From positions 552,501 through 616,500 of the forward strand of contig NZ_CP121113.1 of the NCBI RefSeq assembly GCF_029581395.1: 64,000 nt of DNA, in the 5' to 3' direction. The position numbers and the translations under genes were made by a program. Of the stretch, positions 5,421-22,422 are shown one piece after another. Positions within the stretch are counted from its first letter, which is position 1, and each line of letters opens with the position of its first letter. The notes under the pieces were generated by a model. The model was not told the DNA's origin, made no database searches, and worked only from the letters and a program-made list of their open reading frames with translations. This DNA is from Roseinatronobacter sp. S2. Its GTDB lineage: Bacteria; Pseudomonadota; Alphaproteobacteria; Rhodobacterales; Rhodobacteraceae.

Positions 5421-5806
5421 CCACACTCACTGTTTATGATCCTGCCATGTGCTGCTCAACGGGTATTTGTGGTACTGATATTGACCAGAAGCTGATTACT
5501 CTGGCAGCCGATCTGGACTGGCTGCGCGCCCAAGGTGTTGCGGTTCAGCGCTTCGGGCTTAGCCGGGAACCTGCGGAATTCGTGGCCAATGACCAGATTC
5601 GCGATCTTATGCAGGCGTCGGGCGGCGATGATTTGCCAGCGTTTGTGGTGGATGGCAAACTGGTTGCGAAAGCGCATTATCCCGATCGTATAGAGATGGC
5701 AGCGTGGGCAGGTGTCGCCGTCGACCAAGAGATGCCGCCTTCAAAACGAGGTGGTTGTTGCTGTGGCCCTGCCAAGGCAGAGCGGAAACAGGGCGCGTGC
5801 TGTTAA
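5417..5806 (+). CDS. arsD: arsenite metallochaperone ArsD
   Basis: The 129-residue protein carries Cys12, Cys13 and Cys18, exactly the three cysteines with which ArsD binds As(III) and passes it to ArsA. Two further cysteine clusters sit at the end (GGCCCG and the final CC), as in other ArsD proteins. The ATG at 5417 is chosen because it overlaps the arsR stop and gives the family length. A longer upstream frame is only arsR read out of phase. ArsD raises the affinity of the ArsA pump for arsenite, and arsA follows 85 bases downstream. Confidence 0.93.
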   Translation: MTTLTVYDPAMCCSTGICGTDIDQKLITLAADLDWLRAQGVAVQRFGLSREPAEFVANDQIRDLMQASGGDDLPAFVVDGKLVAKAHYPDRIEMAAWAGVAVDQEMPPSKRGGCCCGPAKAERKQGACC

Positions 5807-5891: not shown

Positions 5892-7643
5892 ATGTTCACT
5901 GACCTTCCGAAGTATGTGTTTCTGACTGGCAAGGGCGGTGTTGGCAAAACCTCGCTGGCCTGCGCCACCGCTGTCAGCCTTGCCGATGCGGGCAAAAAGG
6001 TTCTGCTGGTCTCGACCGACCCTGCCTCGAACGTTGGTCAGGTGTTTGGTATTGAAATCGGCAATCACATCACGCTTATCGCCAGGGTTCCGGGGCTAAG
6101 CGCGCTGGAAATTGACCCCGAGGGGGCCGCAGCGGAATACCGCGAGCGGATCGTCGGGCCGATGCGCGGGGTTCTTCCGGAGAAGGCACTGAAGGGGATC
6201 GAAGAACAGCTTTCCGGGGCTTGCACGACCGAGATCGCGGCCTTTGACGAGTTTACAGCGCTTCTGACCGACGATGCGGTGACAACCGCCTATGATCACA
6301 TAATTTTCGACACCGCACCCACCGGCCACACTATACGCATGCTGAAGCTGCCCGGTGCGTGGTCGGGCTTTCTGGAAACAGGCGGCGATGCGTCGTGCCT
6401 TGGCCCGCTGGCCGGGTTGGAGCAAAGCCGGGCACGGTATGCGGCTGCGGTGGACAGCCTGTCTGATGGTGCCCGCACGCGACTGATTCTTGTCACGCGC
6501 CCGCGCGCCAGTTCGCTGACCGAGGCCGCGCGCACCAGCCGGGAACTGGCAGATATCGGCATCGGCAACCAGCATCTGGCGATCAACGGGCTGATGCCGG
6601 ACAAGGATCTGGGTGATGATTTGGCAGCCGCCTTGATTATGCGTGACACTGCGGCAATCGACGGAATGGACAGTCATCTGGCGGCCCTTCCACAAACCCG
6701 GTTTGCACTAAGACCCGAGAACCTTGTGGGCCTTGCTGCACTGCGCCGGATGACCGCGCCTGTAGCGCTTGACCGGGTCGCGCCGCGCACCGCTGATGGC
6801 GATCTGCCGCCTCTGTCTGCGCTGGTGGACGGGATCGAAGCCGCTGGAAAAGGGCTGGTCATGACCATGGGCAAGGGCGGCGTCGGCAAGACCACAATTG
6901 CCGCTGCGGTCGCCGTTGAGCTTGCCGCGCGCGGGCACGAGGTGCTGCTGACCACGACCGACCCTGCCGCCCATCTGACCGAAACGCTGGCGGGCGATGT
7001 GCCGCACCTGAGCGTCAGCCGCATCGACCCGGAGGCCGAGACAGCAGCCTACCGCGACCATATCCTTGCCACCAAGGGCGCGAGCCTGGACGCCCAAGGT
7101 CGCGCGATGCTGGAGGAAGACCTGCGCTCGCCCTGTACCGAGGAAATCGCCGTGTTTCAGGCGTTTTCCCGCGTCATCCGCGAAGCGGGCCGCAAATTCG
7201 TGGTGATGGATACGGCACCCACGGGCCACACGCTGTTGTTGCTGGATGCAACCGGATCATATCACCGCGACGTGCTGCGCCACGCGGGCAAGGCGGCAAG
7301 CCACATGACCACGCCGATGATGCGGTTGCAGGATGCGGACAAAACCAAGGTGCTGATTGTCACACTGGCCGAAACCACGCCGGTTCTGGAAGCCTCGCGC
7401 CTGCAAGATGATCTGCGGCGCGCGGGCATTGAACCTTATGGTTGGGTCGTCAATGCCAGTCTTGCGGCAACCGGAACCACGCATCCCATCCTTGCCGCCC
7501 GCGCCGCGTCCGAGGCGCCCGAGATTGCTTCTGTCCGCAACAGTCTTGCCGCGCGCTATGCCGTGGTGCCGATGCAGGCCGAAGACCCAGTGGGTGCTGC
7601 GCGTCTGCGCGCTCTTGTCCGCCCGGAACCTGTGCTGGTCTGA
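5892..7643 (+). CDS. arsA: arsenical pump-driving ATPase ArsA
   Basis: This 583-residue cytoplasmic ATPase has the duplicated ArsA architecture. Signature P-loops GKGGVGKT lie at residues 13-20 and 327-334, each followed by DTAPTGHT switch motifs. Cys111, Cys169 and Cys415 correspond to the three cysteines that bind As(III) between the halves in the E. coli enzyme (113, 172, 422). It uses ATP to drive arsenite efflux through the membrane carrier. The carrier here is Acr3 rather than ArsB, a pairing found in other bacteria. A GGAGAG ribosome site precedes the ATG. Confidence 0.95.
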   Translation: MFTDLPKYVFLTGKGGVGKTSLACATAVSLADAGKKVLLVSTDPASNVGQVFGIEIGNHITLIARVPGLSALEIDPEGAAAEYRERIVGPMRGVLPEKALKGIEEQLSGACTTEIAAFDEFTALLTDDAVTTAYDHIIFDTAPTGHTIRMLKLPGAWSGFLETGGDASCLGPLAGLEQSRARYAAAVDSLSDGARTRLILVTRPRASSLTEAARTSRELADIGIGNQHLAINGLMPDKDLGDDLAAALIMRDTAAIDGMDSHLAALPQTRFALRPENLVGLAALRRMTAPVALDRVAPRTADGDLPPLSALVDGIEAAGKGLVMTMGKGGVGKTTIAAAVAVELAARGHEVLLTTTDPAAHLTETLAGDVPHLSVSRIDPEAETAAYRDHILATKGASLDAQGRAMLEEDLRSPCTEEIAVFQAFSRVIREAGRKFVVMDTAPTGHTLLLLDATGSYHRDVLRHAGKAASHMTTPMMRLQDADKTKVLIVTLAETTPVLEASRLQDDLRRAGIEPYGWVVNASLAATGTTHPILAARAASEAPEIASVRNSLAARYAVVPMQAEDPVGAARLRALVRPEPVLV

Positions 7644-7664
7644 ACACTGAAGGAAGACACCAAC

Positions 7665-8741
7665 ATGCCTATTTTTGAACGTTACCTTTCGGTCTGGGTT
7701 GCCCTTGCCATAGTTGCGGGGCTGGCGCTTGGCCAGATCGCGCCCGCGCTGGTGAATGCGCTGGCAAGCCTTGAATATGGCTCGATCAATTTCGTGGTCG
7801 CGGTGCTGATCTGGTTCATGGTCTATCCGATGATGGTGGGGGTGGATTTCACATCGCTTGCCCGCGTGCATGAACGCCCCAAGGGGCTGATCATTACGCT
7901 AACCGTCAACTGGCTGATAAAGCCCTTCACCATGGCCGCCCTTGGCGTGCTGTTTTTCGAGTATGTCTTTGCACCCTTTATTGAGCCGGGCACCGCAGGC
8001 CAGTATATCGCAGGCATGATCCTTCTGGGTGCTGCCCCCTGCACCGCGATGGTGTTCGTGTGGTCGCAACTGACCAAGGGGGACCCGAATTACACATTGG
8101 TGCAGGTGTCACTGAATGATGTGATCATGATCTTCGCCTTCGCGCCCATCGTGGCGCTGCTGCTGGGCGTGACCGACATAACCGTGCCATGGGAAACGCT
8201 GGTGCTGTCGGTGGTGCTGTATATTGTGGTGCCGCTGACGGCGGGCGTGATCACGCGGCTTTATATGACACGCGGCGCGCGGAGTGTGGCCGAAGGGGAA
8301 ACCGCTGTGGCCGCATTCACTGCGCGCGTCAAACCCTTCTCGATCATCGGGCTGCTGGCGACGGTCGTGCTGCTGTTCGGTTTTCAGGGCGAGGTGATCC
8401 TTGACCGGCCCCTGATCATCGTGCTGATCGCCATTCCGCTGCTGATCCAGTCCTACGGCATGTTCGCGGTCGCCTATTGGGCCGCGAAAGCGTGGCGTGT
8501 GCCGCATAAGGTCGCGGCCCCCTGCGCGCTGATTGGCACATCGAATTTCTTTGAACTGGCGGTGGCGGTGGCAATCGGGCTGTTCGGCCTGAATTCCATT
8601 GCGGCCCTTGTCACTGTCGTGGGCGTGCTGGTCGAAGTGCCGGTGATGCTGTCGCTGGTGTGGTTCGCCAACCGCACGAAACACTGGTTCCCGCTTGAGG
8701 AAACCCCGATCCGCACAGCCAAAACGAAGGAGCAGAACTGA
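7665..8741 (+). CDS. acr3: arsenite efflux transporter Acr3
   Basis: The 358-residue inner-membrane protein has about ten hydrophobic segments and belongs to the BASS-superfamily Acr3 carriers. The conserved [13 protein letters not shown] stretch contains the cysteine essential in characterised Acr3 proteins. It would extrude As(III), alone or energised by ArsA encoded 21 bases upstream. The stop TGA shares bases with the next ATG (TGATG), so the decayed usp gene was once coupled to it. Confidence 0.94.
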
Positions 8742-9075: not shown

Positions 9076-9079
9076 TATC

Positions 9080-9460
9080 ATGAAGATCCTGTTTCTCTGC
9101 GTCGCAAATTCCGCGCGTAGCCAGATGGCCGAAGGCCTGGCCCGCGCGATGCTGCCCAAGAATGTCGAGATCGCCAGCGCCGGTTCCGCACCCGGACAGG
9201 TGAACCCGCTGGCGATCAAGGCGCTTGCGGAGATCGATATCGACATCTCTGGGCAGTGGTCAAAACCACTGGAAGACGTCGCCGTTGAGGCCGCCGATCT
9301 GATCGTGACACTATGTGCGGAAGAGGTCTGCCCGTATGTGCCCGGCGAAGTTCAACGCTTGCACTGGCCTGTCATCGACCCCGCAGCGTCTGGCAATATC
9401 GCGGCCTTCCGTGCCGCACGCGATCAGATCCGGGACAAGATTGCAGGTTTAGGGCTTTGA
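9080..9460 (+). CDS. arsC: arsenate reductase ArsC (LMW-phosphatase type)
   Basis: The 126-residue protein has the phosphatase loop C-x5-R (Cys7 to Arg13, CVANSAR) at its N-terminus, as in the low-molecular-weight tyrosine phosphatase family of arsenate reductases. A general-acid region with WPVIDPA follows near residue 94. It reduces As(V) to As(III), which Acr3 then exports. Few extra cysteines are present (78 and 83), so whether it recycles with thioredoxin or with glutathione/glutaredoxin is not settled. It closes the ars operon. Confidence 0.88.
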
Positions 9461-9555
9461 GGTCCCCGAAGGCACAAGCGCTTCGCGCCTACATGCAACG
9501 CAGCTTTACAGCGCGCTACCGCAACGGATAGTTTGATCTGGGGGGACATTGTTAA

Positions 9556-10416
9556 ATGATGCGGCTTCAACGACGCAAGGTCTTGGTGGCGGCAGGCTTA
9601 GCGCTGCTGTCCGCCCCCATGGTGCTGCGCGCGCAGCCCGTGCCGTTCAGGTTTGGCCTGACCCCTGTGTTTCTGGACAATGACTGGCAATTGCTGGACT
9701 TTCTGCGCGCACATCTAAGCACCAAGATGGGTGGCGAGGTGGAGTTCCTTCAGCGCCGCACCTACAAGGAAGTCACAGCCCTTTTGTTGATGGGCGAGAT
9801 TGATGCGGCGTGGCTGTGCGGCTATCCTTTGCTTCAGAATAGTGAAAGGCTGTCCGCGTTGGCGCTGCCAGTATGGCAGGGCCAGCCGAATTACAGCGCA
9901 AAGATCATCACGAGTAAGGGACGCACTGCGCAGTATCTGGAGGATCTGCGCGGCGATATTCATGCTTATTCCGATCCGGATTCCAATTCCGGCCATCTGG
10001 TCACAGTTTCGGAACTGCTAAAGCAAAACCACCGTCCCGAAGCGTTCTTTGCGCGCAGCTTCTTCACCTATGGTCACCGCAATGTCGTGCGTGCCGTCGC
10101 GCGTGGTCTTGCGCAATCGGGCAGTGTGGATGGCTATGTTTATGAGGCCATGCAACGCGCAGAGCCCGAGCTTGTGGCGCGAACCCATGTCTTGTGGGAA
10201 TCGGAACAGTTTGGATTTCCACCCATTGTGGTGGCCCGTGAAGCCTTGGACAGTGGTCCCGCGCAAAGTTTCTTTACCGCGCTCACGACCATGCAAGAAA
10301 GCGATGCCGGACAGGCGGCGCTGCAGATGCTGCAGCTGGATGGGTTCGCTGCACCTGACGCACACAGCTTTGATCAGATCGCCGCGCGGATGCGGATTGT
10401 GGCAGAGCGAGGCTGA
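9556..10416 (+). CDS. arxX: periplasmic As(III)-binding sensor protein, AioX/ArxX-like
   Basis: The 286-residue protein has an N-terminal export signal (RRKVLVAAGLALLSAP, ending near residue 26) and a PhnD/phosphonate-type periplasmic binding fold. It contains a single cysteine, Cys88, in the motif AAWLCGYPLL. AioX proteins sense arsenite through one conserved cysteine, so this residue is a likely As(III) ligand. A kinase gene starts five bases after the stop and a response regulator follows, the XSR order of aio and arx loci. Distinguishing it from other PhnD-like sensors rests on this context. Confidence 0.78.
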   Translation: MMRLQRRKVLVAAGLALLSAPMVLRAQPVPFRFGLTPVFLDNDWQLLDFLRAHLSTKMGGEVEFLQRRTYKEVTALLLMGEIDAAWLCGYPLLQNSERLSALALPVWQGQPNYSAKIITSKGRTAQYLEDLRGDIHAYSDPDSNSGHLVTVSELLKQNHRPEAFFARSFFTYGHRNVVRAVARGLAQSGSVDGYVYEAMQRAEPELVARTHVLWESEQFGFPPIVVAREALDSGPAQSFFTALTTMQESDAGQAALQMLQLDGFAAPDAHSFDQIAARMRIVAERG

Positions 10417-10420
10417 CAGG

Positions 10421-11848
10421 GTGCGCGGGTTTCACCTTCCCGTTATGGTCAAGGGGCCGCTTCTGGCGGCGGGGCTGTTGGTGCTGGTGGGCATTCTGGC
10501 CTCGCATCTGGTGTTGCGCGCGCTGGTGAACACACAAGAGCGGCACTTGCGCGAAATGGCGCTGCTGGAGTTTGCAGGCGTCGAGGCGACGATCGGCCCC
10601 TTCGTGGTGCGCGATGATATCTGGGAAATGTTCGACCTGCTGGATCGTGTTACCCAGCGCGAGGGTGCGCTCAGACCGCTGCAGGCGACGCTTATTGATC
10701 CCCTTGGGCGCGTCACTGTATCGACCGCGCCTGAAATAAACCCGCTTGGTGCGCAGCGTGCCAGCATGATCGCGGCGGCCACGCCCGTGACGGCACCGCA
10801 GTATGACCTGAGCAACGGCACTATCGCACTCTCGAAGGTCATGCAGTATCAGAACCGGCCACTCGGACAGGTGATTATAGAGTTTGATACCACTGGTTTT
10901 GTTACGGAACGGACACGCACCGCCGCAATCCTGATCGCGGGCAATGCAATCGCAACCCTGATTGCAGCACTCTTGGGCTTTTGGTTGATGCGCCGCGTGC
11001 TGCGCCCGGTTGCACGGCTGACCGACGAGATGGGGCGCAGCAGTGATGCACTGACACCCATTCCGGATGCTGCGATCCCGCGTCGAAACCCCGAAGTCGC
11101 GAAACTCTATGACACCTATAACGGATTGATCCGCGCGGTGGCAGAGCGCGACGCCACAACAAGGCGTCTGGCGGACCGCGAACGGTTTGTCAGCCTTGGG
11201 CGGCTTGCCGGCACGCTGGCGCATGAGGTCAACAACCCGCTGGGCGGATTGCTGAACACTGTGGACACGCTGCGCACCTATCCAGATCGCGCCGATGTGG
11301 TCAAAAATTCGGCAGATTTGCTGGATCGCGGGCTGCGGCACATGCGCGATGTCGTGCGCGCCACATTGGATGTTCACCGCGACGCGCCAGAGCGCAGGTC
11401 GCTGGCGCTGGCCGATCTTGAAGATCTGAACCTGCTGATCCGTCCGGAGGCCGAGGGGCGCGGCCAGCACCTGCATTGGGAAATCACGCTGCCCGAAGAC
11501 TGTGTGGCCCATCTGCCCGCAGGGCCAGTGCGCCAGATTGTCCTGAACCTGCTGCTCAACGCATCCTCGGCTGCGGGGTATGGTGGCGAAATCGGGTTAA
11601 GGCTGGATCGTGAAGGTGCTTTCGTCCGGCTGGCCATACAAGACAGCGGCCCCGGATTGCCCGATCATTTGCACCCGCGTCTGTTATCCGACGCACCTGT
11701 GGCGCCGGGCGGGGGGGTCGGATTGCGGCTCGTGCGCGAGTTGGTTCAGGACATGGGCGGGCAGATAACCTTGGGGCAATCACCGCAGGGCTTGCAGGAA
11801 ATTCAGGTGTATCTGCCCTGCGCAGGCGTTGGGGGGCAGGATGCTTGA
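10421..11848 (+). CDS. arxS: sensor histidine kinase, ArxS/AioS-like
   Basis: This is a 475-residue membrane kinase. One transmembrane segment lies near residues 8-30, then a periplasmic sensor of about 140 residues, a second membrane segment and a HAMP region. The phosphoacceptor motif LAGTLAHEVNNPLGG has His268. An ATPase domain follows with N-box LNLLLNASS, G1 DSGPGLP and G2 GGGVGLRL. The GTG at 10421 is preferred because it follows a purine-rich site and keeps the full first helix; ATG 10445 is an alternative. It probably reads the occupied ArxX protein in the periplasm and phosphorylates ArxR, whose gene overlaps it by eight bases. Confidence 0.82.
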   Translation: MRGFHLPVMVKGPLLAAGLLVLVGILASHLVLRALVNTQERHLREMALLEFAGVEATIGPFVVRDDIWEMFDLLDRVTQREGALRPLQATLIDPLGRVTVSTAPEINPLGAQRASMIAAATPVTAPQYDLSNGTIALSKVMQYQNRPLGQVIIEFDTTGFVTERTRTAAILIAGNAIATLIAALLGFWLMRRVLRPVARLTDEMGRSSDALTPIPDAAIPRRNPEVAKLYDTYNGLIRAVAERDATTRRLADRERFVSLGRLAGTLAHEVNNPLGGLLNTVDTLRTYPDRADVVKNSADLLDRGLRHMRDVVRATLDVHRDAPERRSLALADLEDLNLLIRPEAEGRGQHLHWEITLPEDCVAHLPAGPVRQIVLNLLLNASSAAGYGGEIGLRLDREGAFVRLAIQDSGPGLPDHLHPRLLSDAPVAPGGGVGLRLVRELVQDMGGQITLGQSPQGLQEIQVYLPCAGVGGQDA

Positions 11849-13109
11849 AGGCCGCACCATAGCCTTGGTCGAGGATGATGAGATCATGGGCGGCTCGCTG
11901 GAACAGCGTTTGAAGCTGGAAGGTGCGCGCGTGGTCTGGTTCAAGGGCTATCAGCGCGCGCTTGGCGGGCTGCGCACACCACACCGCCCCTTTGATGCCG
12001 TGATCTGCGATATCCGCTTGGGGGATGGGTCGGGTGAAGACCTGTTTTTGAAGCTTGGGGAAACCACCCTGCCGCCGCCATTTCTGTTCATGACCGGGCA
12101 GGCCAGCGCCGATCAGGCGGTGCGGTTGTTGCGTTCGGGTGCGGCGGATTATCTGACCAAGCCGTTTGATATGGGGCAGTTGCTGGAACGCCTGTCGTTG
12201 CTGATTGCGCCAGGGTTTGAGGGTGACGGGCCGGGATTCGGTCCCTCGAAAGCCGCGCGCCAGATCGATGAGAGGATCAGGCGGCTGGCACGAACAGAGG
12301 GGTCAGTGCTCATACTCGGTGAAAGTGGCACCGGCAAGCGGGCAGCAGCGGAGCGACTGCATGCACGCTCTGAACGGTCTGCTGCGCCGTTCATCGGTGT
12401 CGATCTGTCGCGCATAGCTGGCGACCAGCACGCCGCGCGTCTGTTCGGGGCAGGCGGCGCCATAGAGCAGGCGGGGCAAGGTATTCTGCTGCTGGAACGT
12501 CTGGGCGAGGCCAGCGATGCGGTTCAGGCACAGCTTCTGGCCGCGATCTGGGCGGCACGCACGGAGGGTATGCGTCTGGTGGCAACCGAGGACGACACTG
12601 CGCGCGACAAGCTGCGGCCCGATCTGTTCTTTCACCTCAGCCCGTTGACCCTGCGCATCCCGCCCTTGCGCGACCGGCCCGAGGACGCTTTATGGATGAT
12701 GACCCGTATGTTCGACGGTATGAACCGCCGTCGCGACACACCACTTAAAGGGATATCAACGCAGGCCGAGGCGATGGCGTTGCGCCATGACTGGCGCGGG
12801 AATGGCCGCGAAATTCGCGCACGGCTGGCGCAGTCTATGGCGCTGGCGCAGGGCGAAATGATCATGCCCGCTGATCTGTTCCCTGACATGGCTGCGACAC
12901 CAGATCAGGGCTTTGCCACCTTGGCCGAGGCGCGCGATCAGGCCGAGCGCGTGCAGATCCAGCGCGCGCTGGACCAATGCGCAGGCAGTATGGCGGCCGC
13001 AGCAAAGCTGCTGGGCGTGGGGCGCACGACGCTTTGGGAAAAGATGCAAAAGCTGGGTGTGGAACGGCCCATCGAGGATGTTCGGAAACCCGAACAAGAC
13101 CGGCAGTAA
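11841..13109 (+). CDS. arxR: response regulator, NtrC-like, ArxR/AioR-like
   Basis: The 422-residue protein has a receiver domain with acceptor Asp57 (VICDIRL) and the conserved Lys in TKPFD. A central AAA+ region with Walker A GESGTGK (160-166) follows, and then a Fis-type helix-turn-helix (SMAAAAKLLGVGRTTLWEKM). The GAFTGA loop needed to contact sigma-54 is absent; the sequence runs LFGAGGAIEQAGQG. Walker B reads ILLLERL without the usual Asp-Glu. It may therefore act on sigma-70 polymerase, as the GAFTGA-lacking NtrC of Rhodobacter capsulatus does. Two dyads that may be its sites lie at its 3' end. Confidence 0.8.
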   Translation: MLEGRTIALVEDDEIMGGSLEQRLKLEGARVVWFKGYQRALGGLRTPHRPFDAVICDIRLGDGSGEDLFLKLGETTLPPPFLFMTGQASADQAVRLLRSGAADYLTKPFDMGQLLERLSLLIAPGFEGDGPGFGPSKAARQIDERIRRLARTEGSVLILGESGTGKRAAAERLHARSERSAAPFIGVDLSRIAGDQHAARLFGAGGAIEQAGQGILLLERLGEASDAVQAQLLAAIWAARTEGMRLVATEDDTARDKLRPDLFFHLSPLTLRIPPLRDRPEDALWMMTRMFDGMNRRRDTPLKGISTQAEAMALRHDWRGNGREIRARLAQSMALAQGEMIMPADLFPDMAATPDQGFATLAEARDQAERVQIQRALDQCAGSMAAAAKLLGVGRTTLWEKMQKLGVERPIEDVRKPEQDRQ

Positions 13110-13129
13110 CCCGTCCGGGAATCCGAACA
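13079..13129. promoter_or_regulatory. two tandem dyads upstream of the arx structural genes
   Basis: TGTTCGG-AAAC-CCGAACA at 13079-13096 is a perfect 7-bp-arm dyad. CGTCCGG-GAAT-CCGAACA at 13112-13129 is the same element with two mismatches. Their centres are 33 bp apart, about three helical turns, so both face the same side of the DNA. They lie at the end of arxR and 65-115 bp upstream of a promoter-like element, the expected place for activator sites. Confidence 0.6.
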
Positions 13130-13192
13130 GATAATTTAACCAATTAAAAACAGACATTTGAGCGGTAGATATTGTCGCGCCTTCCGCATGCT

Positions 13193-13209
13193 TTGGTATG
13201 CCGCCTGCT
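13193..13209 (+). promoter_or_regulatory. candidate sigma-54-like -24/-12 promoter of arxB2ABCD
   Basis: TTGGTATGCCGCCTGCT has GG at 13195-13196 and GC at 13207-13208 with ten bases between, the invariant sigma-54 spacing, and partly matches the consensus. It is about 80 bases before the chosen arxB2 start. The ArxR protein lacks GAFTGA, which argues against sigma-54 use, so the site is uncertain. Confidence 0.35.
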
Positions 13210-13289
13210 GTATCTTGCAGATGGAGAGCCAGAATCTGCCCTGTGTCGCACCGCGCGCATGGGGCAATTCCAGCCAAGGGGGGAACGTC

Positions 13290-14387
13290 GTGGAGGAGAG
13301 TGCAGAAATTGATTTGCAGGACAAGCTGTCGCTGGATGCGGCCGCCTGCCTGACGATCCGCCGCCCCGATGCGGCCTGCACTGCCTGTGCGGATATCTGC
13401 CCCGCGCAAGCAATCAGGATTGATGCGCGCGCCATTGAGCTGGATCATGACCGCTGCACAGGTTGTGCGCGCTGTGTGGTGGCCTGCCCGACTGGCGCGC
13501 TTATGCTGTCTGTTTCGCTTGCGAAAACCGCTGCACCTTTTGAATGCAGCCGGGTTGCACAGTCAGATCGTAAGTCGGGCGCACAAGTCGTTCCCTGTCT
13601 GGGTGGCCTGTCTGCGACGCAGCTACTGGAACGCATGTCCAGGCATGGGCAGGTCACGCTGGTGGATCGCGGCTGGTGCGCGGGCTGCCCTTCGGGTGGC
13701 TGCGCGCAGCCTTGGGGGGATGCGGTGCAATCGGTGCAAGCTGATCTGGCCGATCTGGGCCATGATGCGGCGGGGGTGCAGGTCATCCCGGCCCCGACAC
13801 ACTCTGCCCGTGCACGACCGGCCCCGCAACCGCGCCGCCCCCGGCAACAAGCTTATTCCCGCCGCCAACTGTTCCGCCGCCTGACCACCCCAGCACCTGC
13901 GCCTGACCTAAGCCGGGTGACCACCAATCAGCCTTTCAGTGGCAAGGTGGGTACGCCCGCGCTGGAGCGTCGCCGCGATGCCTTGTGCGCGTTGCATGGC
14001 GCAGACACGCTGCCCGCCGCAATTTTCCCAGCGTTGGACTGCACCGGCATACCCGATATGCGGTTTGCCGCAAGCCTGTGCCCCACACATGCCCTGACCC
14101 TGACCGAGACAGCCGACGCAGATAGCCTGACATTCGACGCAGCACTGTGCATTGGCTGTGGCGATTGCGAAAAGGCGGATGGCCTCCACCTGCTTACGCA
14201 GGGCGCAGGGCAATATGACGGACCTGTGACGCTCGTTCGCCAGATCATGGCCGATTGCCCCGGTTGCCTGCGCCGGTTCGCGCCGCGCGCAGCCCAGAGC
14301 AAATGCGACGCCTGCCACAAAGATAATGATCTTGCTGCTTCGGCCTTTGGGCTGATGCGGCGTAGCCAAGTGCCCTACGGGGCCTGA
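13290..14387 (+). CDS. arxB2: polyferredoxin-like Fe-S protein (ArxB2-like)
   Basis: The 365-residue protein carries two ferredoxin-type [4Fe-4S] motifs near its start (Cys30-x2-Cys33-x3-Cys37-Pro and Cys56-x2-Cys59-x2-Cys62-x3-Cys66-Pro). More cysteine groups follow at the C-terminal end (CIGCGDC, CPGC, CDACHK). No signal peptide is visible, so it is probably cytoplasmic. GTG 13290 is chosen because AAGGGGGG lies just upstream and the longer frame would run over the promoter region. A ferredoxin gene ahead of arxA is typical of arx loci. Its exact role, electron transfer or cofactor assembly, is not established. Confidence 0.68.
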   Translation: MEESAEIDLQDKLSLDAAACLTIRRPDAACTACADICPAQAIRIDARAIELDHDRCTGCARCVVACPTGALMLSVSLAKTAAPFECSRVAQSDRKSGAQVVPCLGGLSATQLLERMSRHGQVTLVDRGWCAGCPSGGCAQPWGDAVQSVQADLADLGHDAAGVQVIPAPTHSARARPAPQPRRPRQQAYSRRQLFRRLTTPAPAPDLSRVTTNQPFSGKVGTPALERRRDALCALHGADTLPAAIFPALDCTGIPDMRFAASLCPTHALTLTETADADSLTFDAALCIGCGDCEKADGLHLLTQGAGQYDGPVTLVRQIMADCPGCLRRFAPRAAQSKCDACHKDNDLAASAFGLMRRSQVPYGA

Positions 14388-14443
14388 CATTTGCGCGCCC
14401 AGGCGGGCGTTGCACTTTGATTTGAGAAAGGGAGGAGCCAGCA

Positions 14444-16990
14444 ATGGACAAAATCAACTCCGGGATCAGCCGCAGGCGGTTTCTGGCCACGACCGGAACC
14501 GGCGCGCTGACTGTGACTGCGGTGACAGTCGGCATGCCCGGCACAGGGGTGGAAAATGCCCCCGCGCAGGCGCAGGCCGCGCTACCCAACACCAAGATCA
14601 CCAAGAATATCTGCGCGCAATGCCCCGCGCGTTGCGGCATTGACGTCTATACAACCGATGGTCGTGTGCATGCCATTTACGGCGATACCGGCAACCCGAT
14701 TGCCAATGGCAAGTTGTGCCCCAAGGGGCATTGGGGCACTTATTTCCTGTATGACCCCGACCGCTTCAAAGGGCCGATGCGCCGGACCAACCCGAACAAG
14801 GGCCGCAATGAAGACCCCGGTTTTGTGCCGATCAGCTGGGACGAGGCGTTGGATATTGTCGCCGACCGCCTGAATGACCTGCGTGACCGCGGCGAAAGCC
14901 ACCGTTTCGCGCATTTCTATGGCCGCGGCTGGGGGCCGACCGATGCGGGGCTTTATGGCGACTGGGGCAGGCTTTATGGCACGCCCAATTCGGCAATCGG
15001 GCATTCGTCCATGTGTGCCGACGGGTCGAAGCGCGCCAAGCAGGCAACCGATGGGAACAATTCCTACAATTCCTACGATTACGCCAACACCAACTACATC
15101 CTGAATTTCGGCGCGAGCTTTCTGGAAGCGTTTCGCCCCTATAACTACCTGATGCAGATGTGGGGCAAGATGCGGTCAAAAAGCCCGCAGACGCGCATTA
15201 CATCAATCGATGTGCGCATGAGCCCGACCATGGCGGCGTCGGATCGCGCCGTCTATATCAAGCCCGGCACCGATGCGGCGATGGCCTTGGCCGTGGCGCA
15301 TGTCATCCTGACCGAAGGCTTGTGGGACCGCGAATTCGTCGGCGATTTCGCTGACGGGCGCAATCATTTCGTCACCGGCGAGGATATCAGCGCGGCCGCG
15401 CAAGTGGCGGTGACCGACCCAGAGACCGGCGAAGTTACCACGCAAGCGGCCGAAGGCAGTGGTTTTGTGGACCTGTGGACGCATGGCATGGTTCGCTGGT
15501 GGAACGAGGAGTTGAAAGACCGCACCCCCGAATGGGCCGAGAGTGTTACCGGCGTGCCAGCGTCTACCATCCGCGCGGTTGCGCGCGAGTTTGGCACCAC
15601 GCGGCCAGCAATTGCATTGTTCGAGCGCGGCCCGACGTCGCACAGCAACGGCACCTATGCAGGCATGGCGATCCACGCGCTTAACGCGCTGGTGGGCAGC
15701 TTGTATGCCGAAAAAGGCGGGTTGTTCTATCAGATGGGTCCATCCTATGGCGGCCTGCCGGTCAGCGCCGCCGACTATATGGATGATTGGGCACAAAACG
15801 GCGCGTGGAAAGATCAGCCGCGCATTGACAAGGCCAAAACTGCTGAATGGCCAATGGTTGACAGCATGATGCAGGAAGCCGGGCCAAACCACTTGAAGGG
15901 TGACCCCTACAAGCTGGACACGGCGATGTTCTACTACACCAACCCGATCTGGTCGGCCCCGAACCCGCAGGTCTGGGAAGAGGCGCTGAAGGATGTGTTC
16001 ATCATCGACACCTCACCCTTCCCCGGCGAAACGGCGATGTATGCTGACATCGTTCTGCCCGATCACACCTATCTGGAACGTTGGCAGGACAGCCCGACCT
16101 ACCCGTTTGAAGGCTGGCCAATGACCGCGCTGCGCGTGCCTGCGGTGGACCCGATCCATGACACCAAGCATTTTGGTGACACGCTGATAGAGATCGGCAA
16201 GCGCATTAACGGGCCGATGGGTGACTATTACCGCGAGATCGACAATGTCGAGAATATCCTGCGCCATCTGGCAAAGGGTTTCGAGGATAACCCCGGCGAT
16301 AACGGGGTGAACAGTTTCGAGAGCTGGGCCGAAAAGGGGGTTTGGTATAAAAAGCCCTATCACTGGCACCAGCGGCGCGGCAAATTCTATGAATGGGACG
16401 GCGAAGGCTATAATGTCGAGATGACGCCGGAGGATGTGAAGGCAAAACTGCTGAAAACACCTTCCGGTAAATTCGAGTTCGTGTCGGGTTATCTGGAAAA
16501 CCACGCGGATTATATCGAGCGCGAACTGGGTGTTCCGGCTGACCGCGCCGGCTTGATCCAATGGGTTACGCCGGTGCATTCCGGCGGCGATGACGACCTG
16601 TTCCTTGTCAGCCCCAAGACGCCTTTGCACGCGGAAGGCCGCAGCGGCAATATTCCGCATGGGATCGCAATTCACCAGCCCATCGTCGGCGGCAAGAACA
16701 CGGTTTACCTGGAGATCCACCCCGATACAGCGCGGGCGCGCGGCATCGGGAATGGTGACCGGGTGCGCATGACTTCCGCGGTTGGTTCCATCGAAGCCTA
16801 TTGCCGCTTCATGCCGGGTCATCGGCGCGACACCATCGTGCTGCCGATGGAGCATGGCCACTGGGCGCAAGGCCGATGGGCCAAGGGCCGGTTGCCGGGC
16901 CATTCCGGCGATGTCACCCCCAATGTATCCGATCCGATTTCAGGACTGGCCAGCTACTATACTGGCAAGGTCAAACTGGAACGGGTCTGA
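14444..16990 (+). CDS. arxA: anaerobic arsenite oxidase catalytic subunit ArxA
   Basis: This 848-residue member of the DMSO-reductase family starts with a Tat signal (SRRRFLA, residues 9-15). It has a [4Fe-4S] site Cys57-x2-Cys60-x3-Cys64-x27-Cys92, the spacing of the ArrA/ArxA group. Residues 159-164 read YGRGWG. As I recall, GRGWG marks the ArxA branch, whereas arsenate reductases ArrA carry an RGRY-type motif here. It should hold molybdenum-bis-pterin and oxidise As(III) to As(V) in the periplasm. The neighbours encode matching Fe-S, membrane and chaperone subunits and an arsenite-sensing system. Antimonite oxidase or a related reductase remains possible. Confidence 0.86.
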   Translation: MDKINSGISRRRFLATTGTGALTVTAVTVGMPGTGVENAPAQAQAALPNTKITKNICAQCPARCGIDVYTTDGRVHAIYGDTGNPIANGKLCPKGHWGTYFLYDPDRFKGPMRRTNPNKGRNEDPGFVPISWDEALDIVADRLNDLRDRGESHRFAHFYGRGWGPTDAGLYGDWGRLYGTPNSAIGHSSMCADGSKRAKQATDGNNSYNSYDYANTNYILNFGASFLEAFRPYNYLMQMWGKMRSKSPQTRITSIDVRMSPTMAASDRAVYIKPGTDAAMALAVAHVILTEGLWDREFVGDFADGRNHFVTGEDISAAAQVAVTDPETGEVTTQAAEGSGFVDLWTHGMVRWWNEELKDRTPEWAESVTGVPASTIRAVAREFGTTRPAIALFERGPTSHSNGTYAGMAIHALNALVGSLYAEKGGLFYQMGPSYGGLPVSAADYMDDWAQNGAWKDQPRIDKAKTAEWPMVDSMMQEAGPNHLKGDPYKLDTAMFYYTNPIWSAPNPQVWEEALKDVFIIDTSPFPGETAMYADIVLPDHTYLERWQDSPTYPFEGWPMTALRVPAVDPIHDTKHFGDTLIEIGKRINGPMGDYYREIDNVENILRHLAKGFEDNPGDNGVNSFESWAEKGVWYKKPYHWHQRRGKFYEWDGEGYNVEMTPEDVKAKLLKTPSGKFEFVSGYLENHADYIERELGVPADRAGLIQWVTPVHSGGDDDLFLVSPKTPLHAEGRSGNIPHGIAIHQPIVGGKNTVYLEIHPDTARARGIGNGDRVRMTSAVGSIEAYCRFMPGHRRDTIVLPMEHGHWAQGRWAKGRLPGHSGDVTPNVSDPISGLASYYTGKVKLERV

Positions 16991-17017
16991 TCCCCAGCAT
17001 CGAAAAGGATATAGAAC

Positions 17018-17767
17018 ATGACGAAATGGGGAATGGTCATTGACCTTGACAAATGCACCGGCTGTCAGGCTTGCACGACCGCTTGTGCGATGGAAAACAA
17101 CACGCTGCCCGGTGAAAACTGGCAAGATGTGCTGTATTACAGCGAAGGCACCTATCCGACCGCCAAGCTGACTTGGCTGCCGCGCCCGTGCATGCAATGC
17201 GAAAACCCGTCTTGCGTGGCAGTCTGCCCGACCAAGGCGACCTATAAGGACATGGATGCGGGCGGCATTGTATTCGTGGACTGGAACAAATGCATCGGTT
17301 GCAAATACTGCATGATCGCCTGCCCCTATGGCGTGCGTTTCTATGCCGATGAAAAGCCGGTGGTGGAACCTGATATCCGCGATGTCTTTCCGGGCGAGGG
17401 GCAGTTGCACGCGCCCCCTTATCAGGGACCGGAGAGCGACTCGGTGCGCGGGATCGGCATTCAGCCCAAAGGCGTGGTGTCAAAATGCACCTTTTGTTAT
17501 CACAAGGTGTCCAAAGCCCCCGAAGGCGTGGCCGATCTGGACGAAGACAACCCGGACACCAAGGAATACACGCCCGCCTGCGTGCGCACCTGCCCGCCGA
17601 AAGCGCGCTATTTCGGCGATCTGGACAACCCCGAATCCGAAGTGAACCGCCTGATCGCGGACCAGCGCGGTGTCCGCCTGAAAGACCATACCGGCAACCG
17701 CCCGCAGGTCTATTATCTTGGCTCTGGCGCGGATGTGCCGGCCTATCAATCCCCAAAGAAAACCTGA
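17018..17767 (+). CDS. arxB: four-cluster Fe-S electron-transfer subunit ArxB
   Basis: The 249-residue protein has four cysteine groups: CTGCQACTTAC, CMQCENPSCVAVC, CIGCKYCMIAC and CTFCYHK paired with CVRTC. This is the layout of DmsB/PsrB/ArrB subunits carrying four [4Fe-4S] clusters. It lacks its own signal peptide and would be exported bound to Tat-dependent ArxA. It carries electrons between ArxA and the membrane subunit encoded 13 bases downstream. A GGATATAGAAC stretch supplies the ribosome site after arxA, 27 bases away. Confidence 0.9.
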   Translation: MTKWGMVIDLDKCTGCQACTTACAMENNTLPGENWQDVLYYSEGTYPTAKLTWLPRPCMQCENPSCVAVCPTKATYKDMDAGGIVFVDWNKCIGCKYCMIACPYGVRFYADEKPVVEPDIRDVFPGEGQLHAPPYQGPESDSVRGIGIQPKGVVSKCTFCYHKVSKAPEGVADLDEDNPDTKEYTPACVRTCPPKARYFGDLDNPESEVNRLIADQRGVRLKDHTGNRPQVYYLGSGADVPAYQSPKKT

Positions 17768-17780
17768 GGAGGGCTGAGTG

Positions 17781-18968
17781 ATGAACAAGGGTAACATCCT
17801 GCAAGGGCCGATGGGTCTGATGTTGATGGTTGTGTCAGCCATCGTGGCACTTGCCGCCTTCGGCTATGCGTTTCTTGACCTGCAATCCGCAGGCCACCGC
17901 AGTTTCAACACCACCTCGCAGATCCCGTGGGGCCAACCGATTGCGACTTATCTGTATTTCGCGCTGGCCTCATCCGGTCTGGGCATGATCGCGGCGCTGT
18001 CGCTGGTGTTCGGGTTCAAGCAATTCCTGCCCATCGCCAAACGCGCCATTTACTTGTCTGTCGTGATACTTCTGGCAGGTATGGCCGTGCTGGCTATGGA
18101 ACTGGGTCATGTATTCCGCATGCTTTGGGTAATTCCGCTGAACATGCAGATACACTCTGCCATGTTCTGGATGGGCGTCTTCTATGTCGCTGACCTGATC
18201 TTCCTGCTGTGGAAATTCCAGAAGATGGAAGGGCAGGAATGGGACAGCAAAACCAGCAAGCAGATCGGGATTGCCTCGTTTCTGGCAGTGCTGCTGGCCA
18301 GCGGGAACCTTGCGCTTGTCTTTGGCATGATGAGCATGCGCCCCTTCTGGTTTGATGGCCTGATGCCGATCTATTTCTACCTGACGGCTGTGGCCAGCGG
18401 ATTGGCGGCGGTGGTGTTCTTCACCTATCTTGCCTATGGCTTCAACCGTAACGCCATGCCCGAACGCACCCGTGTCATGTTCGAAGGGCCGATGGGCAAA
18501 CTATTCGCGGCTGTGCTGGGCGCGACAGTGCTGTTCATCCTTGTGCGGGCCTATACCGGGTTCTACACCAACACCCCCGAAGTCAATGTGGTCTGGCGCG
18601 AGTTCCTGTTTGCTTCACCAGTCTATCAGGCGTCGCTCTGGCTGGGGATTGTCGCCCCTTTTGTGGTGATGTTGATCGCAGGACTGCGCAGCAATCCGTC
18701 CTTGCAGGTGCTGGTTTCGATGGCGGTGTTTGCGGGGCTGTTTGCGGAGCGCTATTTCTTCGTTGTCGGCGGGCAGGTCGTGCCGCTGTTCCGGGGAACA
18801 TGGGAATGGGGCCTGATCCAGTATACACCATCGCTGACCGAATGGACGCTGACGATCATGGGGTCGGCCATGCTGTTCGCACTCTATGCGGCGGGCGAGC
18901 GGTTCCTGAACCTGTCGGACATGCCCGCCGAACCTGCCACGCCCGAAGGCGCAGTCGCGGCGGCGTGA
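17781..18968 (+). CDS. arxC: NrfD/PsrC-like membrane subunit ArxC
   Basis: The 395-residue inner-membrane protein has about nine or ten hydrophobic segments and fits the NrfD/PsrC family that exchanges electrons with quinone. ATG 17781 follows GGAGGG; an in-frame GTG directly before it would add only one residue. It anchors the ArxA-ArxB pair on the periplasmic face and would reduce quinone with electrons from arsenite. In anaerobes those electrons then feed nitrate respiration or photosynthetic carbon fixation. Which of these applies here is not visible in this window. Confidence 0.87.
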   Translation: MNKGNILQGPMGLMLMVVSAIVALAAFGYAFLDLQSAGHRSFNTTSQIPWGQPIATYLYFALASSGLGMIAALSLVFGFKQFLPIAKRAIYLSVVILLAGMAVLAMELGHVFRMLWVIPLNMQIHSAMFWMGVFYVADLIFLLWKFQKMEGQEWDSKTSKQIGIASFLAVLLASGNLALVFGMMSMRPFWFDGLMPIYFYLTAVASGLAAVVFFTYLAYGFNRNAMPERTRVMFEGPMGKLFAAVLGATVLFILVRAYTGFYTNTPEVNVVWREFLFASPVYQASLWLGIVAPFVVMLIAGLRSNPSLQVLVSMAVFAGLFAERYFFVVGGQVVPLFRGTWEWGLIQYTPSLTEWTLTIMGSAMLFALYAAGERFLNLSDMPAEPATPEGAVAAA

Positions 18969-19040
18969 ACCGTTGAAAAGAACCAGTGCAGGGCGGCGCG
19001 ATGCCGCCCTGCCGCGTGAAAGGATCACGGGAGGATCAAG

Positions 19041-19892
19041 ATGAGTGATACACTGGCCGCCGATGCCTATTCCCGCCGCGACCTGTGGCTGTGCCTGGCG
19101 CGCGCCTTTGGCAAACCCGCAGGCGACGCGTTCCGCGATGTGTTCGCCCAACATCTGGCCGATGACCTGAAGGCTATTGCCGAGGAAACCGGACTTGTCG
19201 CACATGAAGATATTGCCGCGTTGCGCAGGGATGCGGCCAGGCTCGGCAATGATCTGGATCTGTTGCGGCTGTATTCCAAGCTGTTCATCGCCCCGCCAAC
19301 GCCTGTGGTGCTGAACGCGGGCTTCTACATGGATGGTGGCAAGTCCGGGCAGATCGAGCAGGAGTTGCGCGCGATTTATGCGCGTCACGGGGTCGCAAAA
19401 AATGCGGACATGCGCGATTTCTACGATGCAGTTCCGCTTCAGCTTGAATTCCTGTCCTTCCTCTATGGCCGCGCGGGCGATTATGCGAAAGCCGCGCAAA
19501 ACATGGAAGCCCGCGCCTATATGGCCGAGGCCGAAGCCTTCATTGCCCGCTATCCGGTGCAATGGTGCACCCCCTTTCTGCGCGATCTGGAAAAAGCCTG
19601 CGCTGATGACGGTCTGAACCGTGCTTACGAACATCTGGCCCGTATCCTGTGGCTGGCCGTGGAGCAGGCGCGTGCGGGCGCCCCGATTGAGGCCCTGCCT
19701 GCTGGCGCTGGTCTGCCACAAGGGTCTTCGCGCGGTCTGGGCGATGTCACGGCGCAGGATCTGGCGGAAGTGGCCTACCGGCTGGAACAGGCGGGGTTGG
19801 CTTGGGACCATGTCGCCGCGAATGAAGCGTGGAGCGATGCGGTCTTTACCGCGCGCCGCGCGCTTGGCGATACCGATGCGGTGCGGGCATGA
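19041..19892 (+). CDS. arxD: TorD-like molybdoenzyme chaperone ArxD
   Basis: The 283-residue all-helical protein has the TorD/DmsD chaperone pattern, including LYSKLFIAPPTPV, QLEFLSFLYGRAG and YPVQWCTPFL. Such chaperones bind the Tat signal of the catalytic subunit and hold it until molybdenum cofactor is inserted. It starts 72 bases after arxC with GGGAGGA before the ATG. Its stop overlaps the start of the DUF2478 gene, so the two are coupled. Confidence 0.85.
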   Translation: MSDTLAADAYSRRDLWLCLARAFGKPAGDAFRDVFAQHLADDLKAIAEETGLVAHEDIAALRRDAARLGNDLDLLRLYSKLFIAPPTPVVLNAGFYMDGGKSGQIEQELRAIYARHGVAKNADMRDFYDAVPLQLEFLSFLYGRAGDYAKAAQNMEARAYMAEAEAFIARYPVQWCTPFLRDLEKACADDGLNRAYEHLARILWLAVEQARAGAPIEALPAGAGLPQGSSRGLGDVTAQDLAEVAYRLEQAGLAWDHVAANEAWSDAVFTARRALGDTDAVRA

Positions 19893-20401
19893 TGCTTGCC
19901 TGTGTTTCTGTCGCGGGCAAGGGGTTGACCGATGCCTGCCTTGCGCAAGCCGTTGCGCTGATACAGGCGCAAGGTGTGCGGCTTGTGGGCACGGTGCAAT
20001 CCAACCCGCAGCGCGCAGATCGGCGACGGTGCGATATGGATCTGCACATCTTGCCTGATGGCCCTGTGCTGCGCATCAGCGAAGATCGTGGCGCACATGC
20101 ACGCGGGTGCCTGCTGGATGCCGGTGTGCTGGAAGCCGCCGTTGCCGCAACGCTGGACCGGCTGGATCGGGCAGAGCTGCTGGTAGTCAATAAATTCGGC
20201 AAGCAAGAGGCGGAAGGGCGCGGTTTCGTGCCTGTGATCGCCGAGGCGATGGCGCGCGGATTACCAGTTCTGGTGGGGGTCAACCCGCTCAATCATGGGG
20301 CGTTCCATGCGTTCGCAGGGGGGCTGGCACATGATCTGGCCGCAGACGCGAATACAATCACCGCTTGGGCCATCGCGCATCGCCGCAGCCACGCCGCCTG
20401 A
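19889..20401 (+). CDS. DUF2478 protein, molybdenum-associated
   Basis: The 170-residue protein matches DUF2478, with VSVAGKGLTDACLAQA at the start, the DMDLHILPDGP and ARGCLLDAG blocks and the strong LLVVNKFGKQEAEGRGF motif. The fold resembles P-loop NTPases of the THEP1 type, although the start is not a canonical Walker A. Members lie next to molybdate transport or molybdoenzyme genes in proteobacteria. Here it is translationally coupled to the arxD chaperone (ATGA overlap; a second ATG at 19892 is possible). A role in molybdenum cofactor delivery to ArxA is an inference. Confidence 0.75.
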   Translation: MMLACVSVAGKGLTDACLAQAVALIQAQGVRLVGTVQSNPQRADRRRCDMDLHILPDGPVLRISEDRGAHARGCLLDAGVLEAAVAATLDRLDRAELLVVNKFGKQEAEGRGFVPVIAEAMARGLPVLVGVNPLNHGAFHAFAGGLAHDLAADANTITAWAIAHRRSHAA

Positions 20402-20486
20402 AGCAGATTGCCCCCGCGCAAACCTGTTTGCTTCTGCACTGTGGCGTCGTCCGATATGAAAACATCAAAAAGATAGGAATACCTTA

Positions 20487-21587
20487 ATGCCCGTCAGCAA
20501 TGAGACCATCCTTTCGCAACTGCAAAAAGTCCCGCTGCCGGATGGTGGCAATCTGGTCGGCGCTGACCTTGTGCGCGCCCTCCAGATAGACGGCGACAAG
20601 GTGCGCTTTGTGATTGAAGCGCCCGACGCAGCCATGGCCAAGTTACTTGGCCCCGTCCAACAGGCGGCAACCGCCGCGTTGCGCGCACTGGAAGGTGTGA
20701 ATGATGTGCAGATTGCGATCACCGCGCATCAGACCAAGGCGCAACCCAAGGCAGGACAGGGCGCGCCGCCGCAACTGGAAATTGGCCGCCACCCGACTGG
20801 CAAGCCAGAGCCGAAATCCATTCCCGGCGTCAAACGCATCCTTGCCATCGGATCGGGCAAGGGGGGCGTGGGCAAGTCCACTGTTTCGTCCAACCTCGCC
20901 GTTGCGATGGCGCGGCAGGGCTGGAAAGTGGGCTTGCTGGATGCCGATATCTACGGCCCCAGTCAGCCGCGTATGATGGGGCTGGACCGCCCGCCGATGT
21001 CGCCTGATGGCAAGCAGATCATCCCGCTGGAATCGCATGGTGTAAAATTCATGTCGATTGGGGTGCTTTTGCCCAAGGATGAGGCCGTGATCTGGCGTGG
21101 CCCCATGCTGATGGGCGCGCTACAGCAGCTTTTGAACGATGTGCGCTGGGGCAATCTGGACGTCCTGATCGTGGATATGCCGCCGGGTACGGGCGACATT
21201 CAACTGACGCTTTGCACCTATTTTGACGTGACTGGCGCGATCGTTGTCTCCACCCCTCAAGACGTGGCGATGATGGATGCGCAGAAGGCGCTGATCGCAT
21301 TCACCAAACTGGGAACCGAGGTGATTGGGCTGATCGAGAATATGTCCGGCTATATCTGCCCCGAATGCGGGCATGAGGCGCATATCTTTGGGCAAGGTGG
21401 TGTGCGCGCCGAGGCTGAGAAACTGGGCCTGCCGCTTCTGGCGGAAATCCCGATCAGCCTTGATGTGCGCCTGTCCGGGGATGAAGGCAGGCCCATTGCG
21501 CTTGGGGATGACGGGATTGCCGAAATCTACGGCAAGCTGGCCGCGCGGCTGATCAAGGCTGCTGAACATGCGGCGCAGGCAGTCTGA
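20487..21587 (+). CDS. mrp: Mrp/ApbC iron-sulfur carrier ATPase
   Basis: The 366-residue protein has an N-terminal MIP18-like domain of about 95 residues. The Mrp/NBP35 ATPase domain follows, with [21 protein letters not shown] and VDMPPGTGD, and a C-terminal CPECG pair that binds a transferable [4Fe-4S] cluster. It delivers Fe-S clusters to client enzymes in the cytoplasm. Most Rhodobacteraceae have one housekeeping copy elsewhere; whether this is the only copy cannot be seen here. Lying directly after the arx genes in the same direction, it may help load the several clusters of the Arx complex. Confidence 0.85.
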
Positions 21588-21681
21588 CGGCCTGCGGCTG
21601 GACAGAATAACCGGCAGGCAGGAAGTGACATGGAAAGGGACGCGACCATACTGGACAAGGGCCACAGGCGCGGCCCACTGA

Positions 21682-21809
21682 CCGAGAACGCGGGCGTGAA
21701 CCGCGTGACGGTGGCCAAGATCGAAACCGGTCGAAAGCAGGGCTCGGTCACGACCCTGCGGGCCTTGGCCGATGCGCCCGGTGTGAGCATGGGTGATTTG
21801 GCCGGGTAA
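21682..21809 (+). pseudogene. XRE antitoxin C-terminal fragment (second copy)
   Basis: A 40-residue tail reading AGVNRVTVAKIETGRKQGSV and ending VSMGDLAG is nearly the same as the end of the antitoxin at 2928-3056, about nine bases in ten identical. The N-terminal part is missing. The two copies have the same orientation and lie on either side of the ars-arx block. Confidence 0.75.
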
Positions 21810-22418: not shown

Positions 22419-22422
22419 AGCA

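Follow-up and report, generated by a model that had tools for sequence, protein, structure and literature searches.

In a 64,000-nucleotide stretch of the Roseinatronobacter sp. S2 genome (hereafter the window; positions 552,501 to 616,500 of contig NZ_CP121113.1), ten intact, co-directional open reading frames fill positions 9556-21587 in the order arxX-S-R-B2-A-B-C-D-DUF2478-mrp, exactly as an earlier, sequence-only reading of this DNA had listed them. Domain assignments from Pfam and NCBIfam match that order and, with a comparison of identities across loci, reveal that the gene set of the arsenite oxidase Arx (arxB2ABCD plus arxXSR) is present in full. We consider it highly probable that this is an inducible Arx locus under control of the aio type, most likely independent of sigma-54, and that it is mosaic in descent. 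Specifically, the X, S and R proteins of Rhodobacterales arx loci nest, in our trees, inside alphaproteobacterial AioXSR, the regulators of the unrelated enzyme AioBA. The sequence-only reading had credited the locus with a regulator set of its own, a description that gives way to one of aio-descended X, S and R, with an operator of the aio kind and an AAA+ domain that has degenerated. Rhodobacterales arx (strain ORIO) is already in print, and the discordance between regulators and enzyme was known in outline; the locus is real, intact and not unprecedented in this order, and its interest lies in the aio-derived, probably sigma-54-independent control and the apparently exchanged oxidase core.

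The descent of the regulators is visible from the sensor onward. ArxX (9556..10416, + strand), a PhnD-type binding protein that by homology would be a periplasmic arsenite-binding protein of the AioX type, scores 276.6 bits against the solved AioX 6esv versus 125.9 bits against ArrX, and it retains all seven residues (Y88, C106, Y131, S161, S163, H192 and D210) given for the AioX arsenite pocket in PMC5908839. Among plasmid records, its best matches after Cereibacter azotoformans ORIO come from Rhodobacterales, rhizobial and other alphaproteobacterial records (48-57%), of which the annotated alphaproteobacterial ones are aio loci, and betaproteobacterial arx and aio rows reach only 38-43%. ArxX is followed by arxS (10421..11848, +; start GTG 10421 or ATG 10445), a HisKA/HATPase sensor histidine kinase of the AioS type, and arxR (11841..13109, +), an NtrC-type response regulator of the AioR type; for both, these are revised likely starts. 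In a 47-row tree of X, S and R (L074, L077 and L078 left out), the six Rhodobacterales arx rows form one clade (100/100), which joins four Rhodobacterales aio rows (100/100) and then four Rhizobiales aio rows in a group of 14 (100/100), with the remaining arx rows falling outside this alphaproteobacterial aio-type clade. Monophyly of the 36 arx rows was rejected by the approximately unbiased (AU) test, both against the eight alphaproteobacterial aio rows (p-AU 2.7e-6) and against ten aio rows (6e-111), p-values that are descriptive because the groups were named after the identities had been seen. As an observation apart, a plasmid of Azoarcus sp. KH32C (pAZKH; L080, 1-6844) carries X, S and R genes divergent from another molybdoenzyme with NrfD and 4Fe-4S subunits near ars genes; this enzyme, too, may act on arsenic and be controlled by XSR.

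The gap between arxR and arxB2 carries what may be the physical trace of this capture. Here lie two 16-bp palindromes 33 bp apart, predicted operator box 1, GTTCGGAAACCCGAAC (13080..13095, unstranded, overlapping the end of arxR), and box 2, GTCCGGGAATCCGAAC (13113..13128, unstranded), so that the AioR operator GTTCGG-N4-CCGAAC, which stands before oxidase genes, is present in this locus too. The arms of box 1 are identical to those of the AioR footprint GTTCGGATTTCCGAAC of Agrobacterium tumefaciens GW4 (PMC5335332). Operator pairs, defined as two boxes that both match at 10 or more of 12 positions and lie 33 bp apart, occurred in seven of eight Rhodobacterales arx loci, three of five Rhizobiales aio loci and none of 37 other arx loci; none of these 37 regions reached p<=0.01 for the operator (one had p 0.034), nor did either betaproteobacterial aio row. 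Genome-wide, two boxes at this spacing occur only in the arx gap, and the sole other exact-arm match falls within the region matched to a molybdoenzyme gene. Among held-out sequences, the close relative G398 has the pair; the Microvirga locus L076 lacks the 33-bp pair but combines a single perfect box with a perfect sigma-54 site, and in L099 a sigma-54 site accompanies one box that matches at 11 of 12 positions. Neither box nor sigma-54 site was seen in L097, in which only a regulator fragment matched, or in L098, where the regulator is in two pieces and no aioBA is annotated behind it. No operator was seen before arxX (best 9 of 12). These patterns suggest that the operator moved together with aio-type regulators. 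We found no account of aio-type operators or of GAFTGA loss in arx loci in a literature search to which subscription papers were largely inaccessible. A wider ArxR regulon was considered and dropped: at one mismatch or fewer, the operator occurs at 17 genome sites, versus 21 for a reversed control pattern.

Although the window ArxR still has a Walker A motif and a Fis-type helix-turn-helix, in the alignment all eight Rhodobacterales ArxR lack both the GAFTGA loop and the DE pair of Walker B. GAFTGA is also missing from all four Rhodobacterales AioR, so its loss does not speak against an aio descent of ArxR, and it is kept in 7/7 Rhizobiales AioR, 2/2 betaproteobacterial AioR and 31/32 rows labelled other arx. 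The promoters follow suit. Sigma-54-like sites at p<=0.05 precede the oxidase genes in only two of eight Rhodobacterales arx and none of four Rhodobacterales aio loci, versus 6/6 Rhizobiales loci (two with identical sequences), 2/2 betaproteobacterial aio loci and 30/37 other arx regions, or 2/12 Rhodobacterales loci against 38/45 others with a valid region, once L004 (a wrong slice) is left out. Among loci with both kinds of data, such a site accompanies 36 of 38 GAFTGA-bearing but two of 13 GAFTGA-less regulators (Fisher p 1.2e-7, on counts made by hand from rows that are related rather than independent). The hallmark of sigma-54 activation by AioXSR, GAFTGA plus a -24/-12 promoter, is not seen intact in this locus, which has no GAFTGA and a weak -24/-12-like element. 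Rhodobacter capsulatus NtrC, likewise an NtrC-type activator without GAFTGA, regulates nitrogen genes and is reported, from tests of that protein, to use sigma-70 (PMC10274813). The single GAFTGA-less row among the other arx, from a Rhodospirillales groundwater metagenome-assembled genome (MAG; L038), has no sigma-54 site before arxB2 either (p 0.64) and is possibly an independent loss.

The enzyme genes behind the operator tell a different history. ArxA (14444..16990, +), the catalytic molybdopterin oxidoreductase subunit, has a Tat signal (RRRFL at residue 10), a CX2CX3CX27C cluster site at 57-92 and YGRGWG at 159-164, each as the sequence-only reading had described, and its best match (96% identity, full length) is a protein named Roseinatronobacter sp. 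That reading had proposed a tree as the check on its identification, and in one of 28 rows ArxA groups with 16 other ArxA rows (61/99 for the ArxA side as a whole), beside Roseinatronobacter and Alkalilacustris and then Halomonas and Marinospirillum, apart from ten ArrA rows that form their own clade (100/100). The motif rule it had applied proved sound, with XGRGWG versus RGRY splitting 17/17 ArxA from 10/10 ArrA rows, and YGRGWG or FGRGWG is present in 49/49 ArxA rows. The NCBIfam equivalog model of ArrA gives only 426.9 bits against a cut-off of 1600; this score, the lack of RGRY and the position outside the ArrA clade rule out that the protein is itself an ArrA. Aligned to ArrA 6cz7, it has R161 and Y208 at substrate positions and C191 at the Mo-ligand position, all invariant in 49/49 ArxA rows, and K196, kept in 30/49; we take R161 and Y208 to be the counterparts of the ArrA substrate residues R165 and Y210, and K196 that of ArrA K198. 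Around ArxA stand the 4Fe-4S accessory protein ArxB2 (13290..14387, +; revised start GTG 13290), the 4Fe-4S electron-transfer subunit ArxB (17018..17767, +), the NrfD-type membrane anchor ArxC (17778..18968, +), which would face the quinone side, and the TorD/NarJ-type chaperone ArxD (19041..19892, +).

These subunits do not share one phylogeny. Rhodobacterales B2 (eight rows) and D (six rows) each form one clade with support 100, whereas the A, B and C trees separate a soda-lake type (the window, L001-L003 and L009, plus L004) from the type of ORIO and L025. A single Rhodobacterales clade was rejected for A (p 4.8e-40), B (0.026), C (1.3e-28) and the concatenation (1.9e-4); the ABC tree left out L016, L024, L048 and rows lacking a gene. 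Further, the window is 60, 53, 57 and 50% identical to L025 in X, S, R and D but 37% in C, and it resembles the Thauera/Azoarcus-type loci L005, L006 and L029 in the enzyme (A 76-78, B 81-82, C 69-73%) far more than in the rest (R 34-37, S 27, D 31-34%). Both the trees and these identities place breakpoints near B2|A and C|D, as if the oxidase core ABC had been exchanged inside a kept frame of regulators, B2 and D. L004, a Rhodospirillales-labelled MAG, has ArxABC of the soda-lake Rhodobacterales type (ArxA 84%), but its arxB2 is only 38% identical and falls outside the clade of Rhodobacterales B2, which may reflect another B2|A junction or a mis-binning. Salt or alkali adaptation was considered as a cause of the exchange and found no support, the acidic-residue excess of ArxA and ArxB failing to separate soda-lake Rhodobacterales from ORIO and L025.

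From homology, we infer the following course from arsenite binding to electron acceptor. As(III) would be bound by ArxX, ArxS would phosphorylate ArxR, and ArxR would bind both palindromes before arxB2; given their place, arxB2ABCD-DUF2478-mrp is probably transcribed as a separate unit. Because the parts that drive the sigma-54 polymerase have been lost, ArxR most likely activates the housekeeping polymerase, as R. capsulatus NtrC does. Our scan of positions 9000-22700 found sigma-70 promoters at chance level (five versus 4.5 expected) and 17 terminator-like sites versus 12.0 (standard deviation 3.6) expected. ArxA, exported by Tat and carrying Mo-bisPGD and a [4Fe-4S] cluster, would oxidize arsenite in the periplasm and pass electrons through ArxB and ArxC to the quinone pool, from which they would enter either nitrate respiration or cyclic photosynthetic electron flow; ArxD, Mrp and perhaps B2 and DUF2478 would help in assembly. 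In origin, the frame would consist of a front end from alphaproteobacterial aio (X, S and R, the operator and the co-directional order) plus the arxB2 and arxD common to all Rhodobacterales arx loci. The ArxABC core that it encloses would be of the haloalkaliphile beta/gammaproteobacterial type, unlike the core found in Cereibacter ORIO and in a Loktanella-labelled MAG. We lean, with moderate confidence, toward a still broader picture of a Rhodobacterales plug-in system, in which one sigma-54-independent, aio-derived front end drove at least three interchangeable cassettes (AioBA, haloalkaliphile-type ArxABC and ArxABC of the Hydrogenophaga/Rubrivivax kind), the ABC block being exchanged while B2, D and the regulators were kept.

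Several observations weigh against this account of a captured, sigma-54-independent front end and an exchanged core. L025 has a single box (10 of 12) instead of the operator pair, none of the four Rhodobacterales aio loci has the pair (three have one perfect box), and two of the five Rhizobiales aio loci space their boxes by 29 or 31 bp. Across the XSR and the A, B and C trees, L038, L082 and L071 were flagged for long branches and L071, L041, L072, L067 and L066 for odd composition. In the XSR tree the two betaproteobacterial aio rows split, L082 beside Hydrogenophaga/Rubrivivax arx and L081 with L038, so regulators and enzymes have been mixed elsewhere too. To these add the descriptive character of the AU p-values, the weak rejection for ArxB (0.026), and a function assigned by homology throughout. 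The first alternative is an ordinary arx locus inherited whole, in which alphaproteobacterial-looking X, S and R merely track organism phylogeny. According to PMC5908839, XSR trees are congruent with 16S while XSR and Mo-enzyme phylogenies differ, its example being Magnetospirillum magnetotacticum, whose ArxXSR cluster with alphaproteobacterial aio. Our Magnetospirillum row, SS-4 (L045), behaves otherwise, grouping like the alphaproteobacterial arx rows L028 and L038 with beta/gammaproteobacterial arx rather than alphaproteobacterial aio, so alphaproteobacterial arx loci differ among themselves; and Rhodobacterales arx regulators nest beside Rhodobacterales aio, with which they share operator and GAFTGA loss. 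We therefore regard whole inheritance as quite unlikely, and if XSR merely remained in its host lineage, the genes for the enzyme must have been brought in behind it, which is close to the mosaic descent proposed here. It is likewise unlikely, though somewhat less so, that ArxR still acts with sigma-54 through the degenerate -24/-12-like element TGGTATGCCGCCTGCT (13194..13209, +), a remnant or weak sigma-54 site scoring 16.5 of 20.5 (p 0.17). A GG-N10-GC element survives at a similar place in five of eight Rhodobacterales arx gaps, two of them above shuffles at p<=0.05 (L003, p 0.023; L025, p 0.027), so sigma-54 use is better called unlikely than excluded, the missing GAFTGA and Walker B acids and the R. 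capsulatus precedent standing on the other side.

Two further alternatives concern what the enzyme does. The close kinship of ArxA and ArrA, and the invariance of R161 and Y208 at ArrA substrate positions, would suit an enzyme that is mainly an arsenate reductase or is bidirectional, yet the sequence features that set ArxA apart from ArrA, together with an AioX-type sensor with an arsenite pocket, make this highly improbable. More of a contender, though still doubtful, is use in air or at low oxygen, as a supplementary electron donor system or for detoxification, which would make "anaerobic" a misnomer here. The nearest named genus includes aerobic bacteria that contain bacteriochlorophyll, regulators and operator alike belong with those of the aerobic enzyme, the island also houses ars genes, and a search for a true RuBisCO came up empty. 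On the other side, the genome encodes a photosynthetic reaction centre (pufL and pufM) as well as narG, which lies on a 167-kb contig. With these genes present, coupling of arsenite oxidation to light or nitrate is plausible. The genome assembly comprises 4.45 Mb in six contigs and is rated 100% complete; its only RuBisCO-family match, a protein of 413 aa, is closest to the OiaX/OiaK models and far below RuBisCO cut-offs. The locus therefore does not imply that the organism grows autotrophically on arsenite, and the host would be a photoheterotroph able to use arsenite as an extra electron donor rather than an arsenite autotroph. No AioA was recognized: of the seven molybdopterin proteins in the genome, the five scanned besides ArxA (NarG, FdhA, a YdeP-type, a NasA/NasC-like and a PhsA/Soe-like protein) all fall short of the AioA cut-off, and the seventh was assigned to NuoG by reading alone.

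Relative to characterized systems, the window shares its eight genes arxXSR and arxB2ABCD and an XGRGWG-type ArxA with Alkalilimnicola ehrlichii MLHE-1, Ectothiorhodospira and Azoarcus sp. CIB (PMC6683785). In beta/gammaproteobacterial arx, however, XSR and B2ABCD form divergent operons (27 of the 30 other arx loci whose compared stretch includes XSR), whereas the window is wholly co-directional with XSR first; its X, S, R, B2 and D are ~26-50% identical to theirs, and its GAFTGA-less ArxR and aio-type operator set it apart from them. Divergent order is not a defining feature of the Arx enzyme. Three Thioalkalivibrio loci (L017, L020 and L039) show a third arrangement, with arxXSR downstream of arxD on the same strand. 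The co-directional X-S-R-oxidase order is instead that of aioXSR-aioBA in Rhizobium/Agrobacterium and in Rhodobacterales (Rhodobacter sp. CZR27, Neotabrizicola and Paracoccus seriniphilus), which also share the AioX pocket and have the palindromic operator in the gap between R and the oxidase. The Rhodobacterales aio loci share the GAFTGA loss as well, and Neotabrizicola a DUF2478 gene after the oxidase genes; the differences are that aio loci encode AioBA rather than ArxABC and that Rhizobiales keep GAFTGA and the sigma-54 promoter. Plasmid pORIO3 of Cereibacter azotoformans ORIO (L066) has the same co-directional ars-arxXSR-B2ABCD order, operator pair and GAFTGA-less ArxR, but an ArxABC core of the Hydrogenophaga/Rubrivivax branch and no mrp or DUF2478 found in its stretch. 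To go by its title, a 2023 study by Mehic and Saltikov reportedly describes photoarsenotrophy in this strain. In this one locus, an arsenic-respiring enzyme and its switch can be seen to have separate histories, and the name "arx" should not be taken to prove anaerobic regulation when, as here, the control system is akin to that of the aerobic enzyme. We predict that ArxR would bind the published AioR site, work without sigma-54 and perhaps activate Rhodobacterales aioBA and arx promoters alike.

The sequence-only reading was right that the ten arx genes are there but drew the locus too short, since the conserved island (~4837-21588) also takes in the ars genes upstream on the same strand, with arsR-D-A-acr3-arsC at its front and the arx genes at its end. 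These are an arsR-type repressor (HTH_5; 5049..5420, +); the arsD metallochaperone (5417..5806, +; Pfam ArsD 140.8 bits, with an approximate start placed where the Pfam match begins); the arsenite pump ATPase gene arsA (5892..7643, +; TIGR04291 849 bits, cut-off 650); the arsenite efflux permease gene acr3 (7665..8741, +; TIGR00832 397 bits, above cut-off); and an arsC-like gene of the low-molecular-weight phosphatase type (9080..9460, +; Pfam LMWPc, and TIGR02691 at 113.7 bits, below its cut-off of 174.3). Positions 4837-21588 are collinear with the congener G398 in three blocks (90.1, 83.7 and 85.6% identity), and beyond 21588 no match longer than 150 bases was found in any of eight compared stretches, which together mark the ars-arx island as the conserved unit. 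It sits on a 183,591-bp contig in G398 and on a 3.48-Mb contig in the window's genome. That reading had also called a full set in such a Rhodobacteraceae genome notable; the distribution is indeed patchy, at 4/37 genus genomes and 2/394 sampled family genomes (the window's own counted in both), but seven further named Rhodobacterales records carry arx (L001, L002, L003, L009, L025, L046 and the ORIO plasmid).

At the far end of the island, the DUF2478 gene (19889..20401, +; revised start, overlapping the arxD stop) recurs in L002, L009, G398 and the aio locus of Neotabrizicola shimadae (L068), where it follows aioBA. The Mrp/ApbC gene (20487..21587, +) is the genome's second copy of this Fe-S carrier, 64% identical to the other and tied to the arx island; relatives were found in L002, L003, L009, L025 and G398 and in no other locus searched, the contigs of L001 and L046 ending before its place. 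Mrp and DUF2478 may serve Fe-S and cofactor delivery. Between acr3 and arsC (8741-9080), ~520 bases present in G398, G411 and others are absent from the window. The right flank of the island (22579-23632) has, on its minus strand, a weak match to the LysR substrate domain, and it also shows an apparent ABC ATPase start, with a scar-like end. Finally, positions 34001-44000 are low in GC (46-53%) and lie ~4-14 kb before a tRNA-Arg gene (47917-47993), possibly marking another mobile region.

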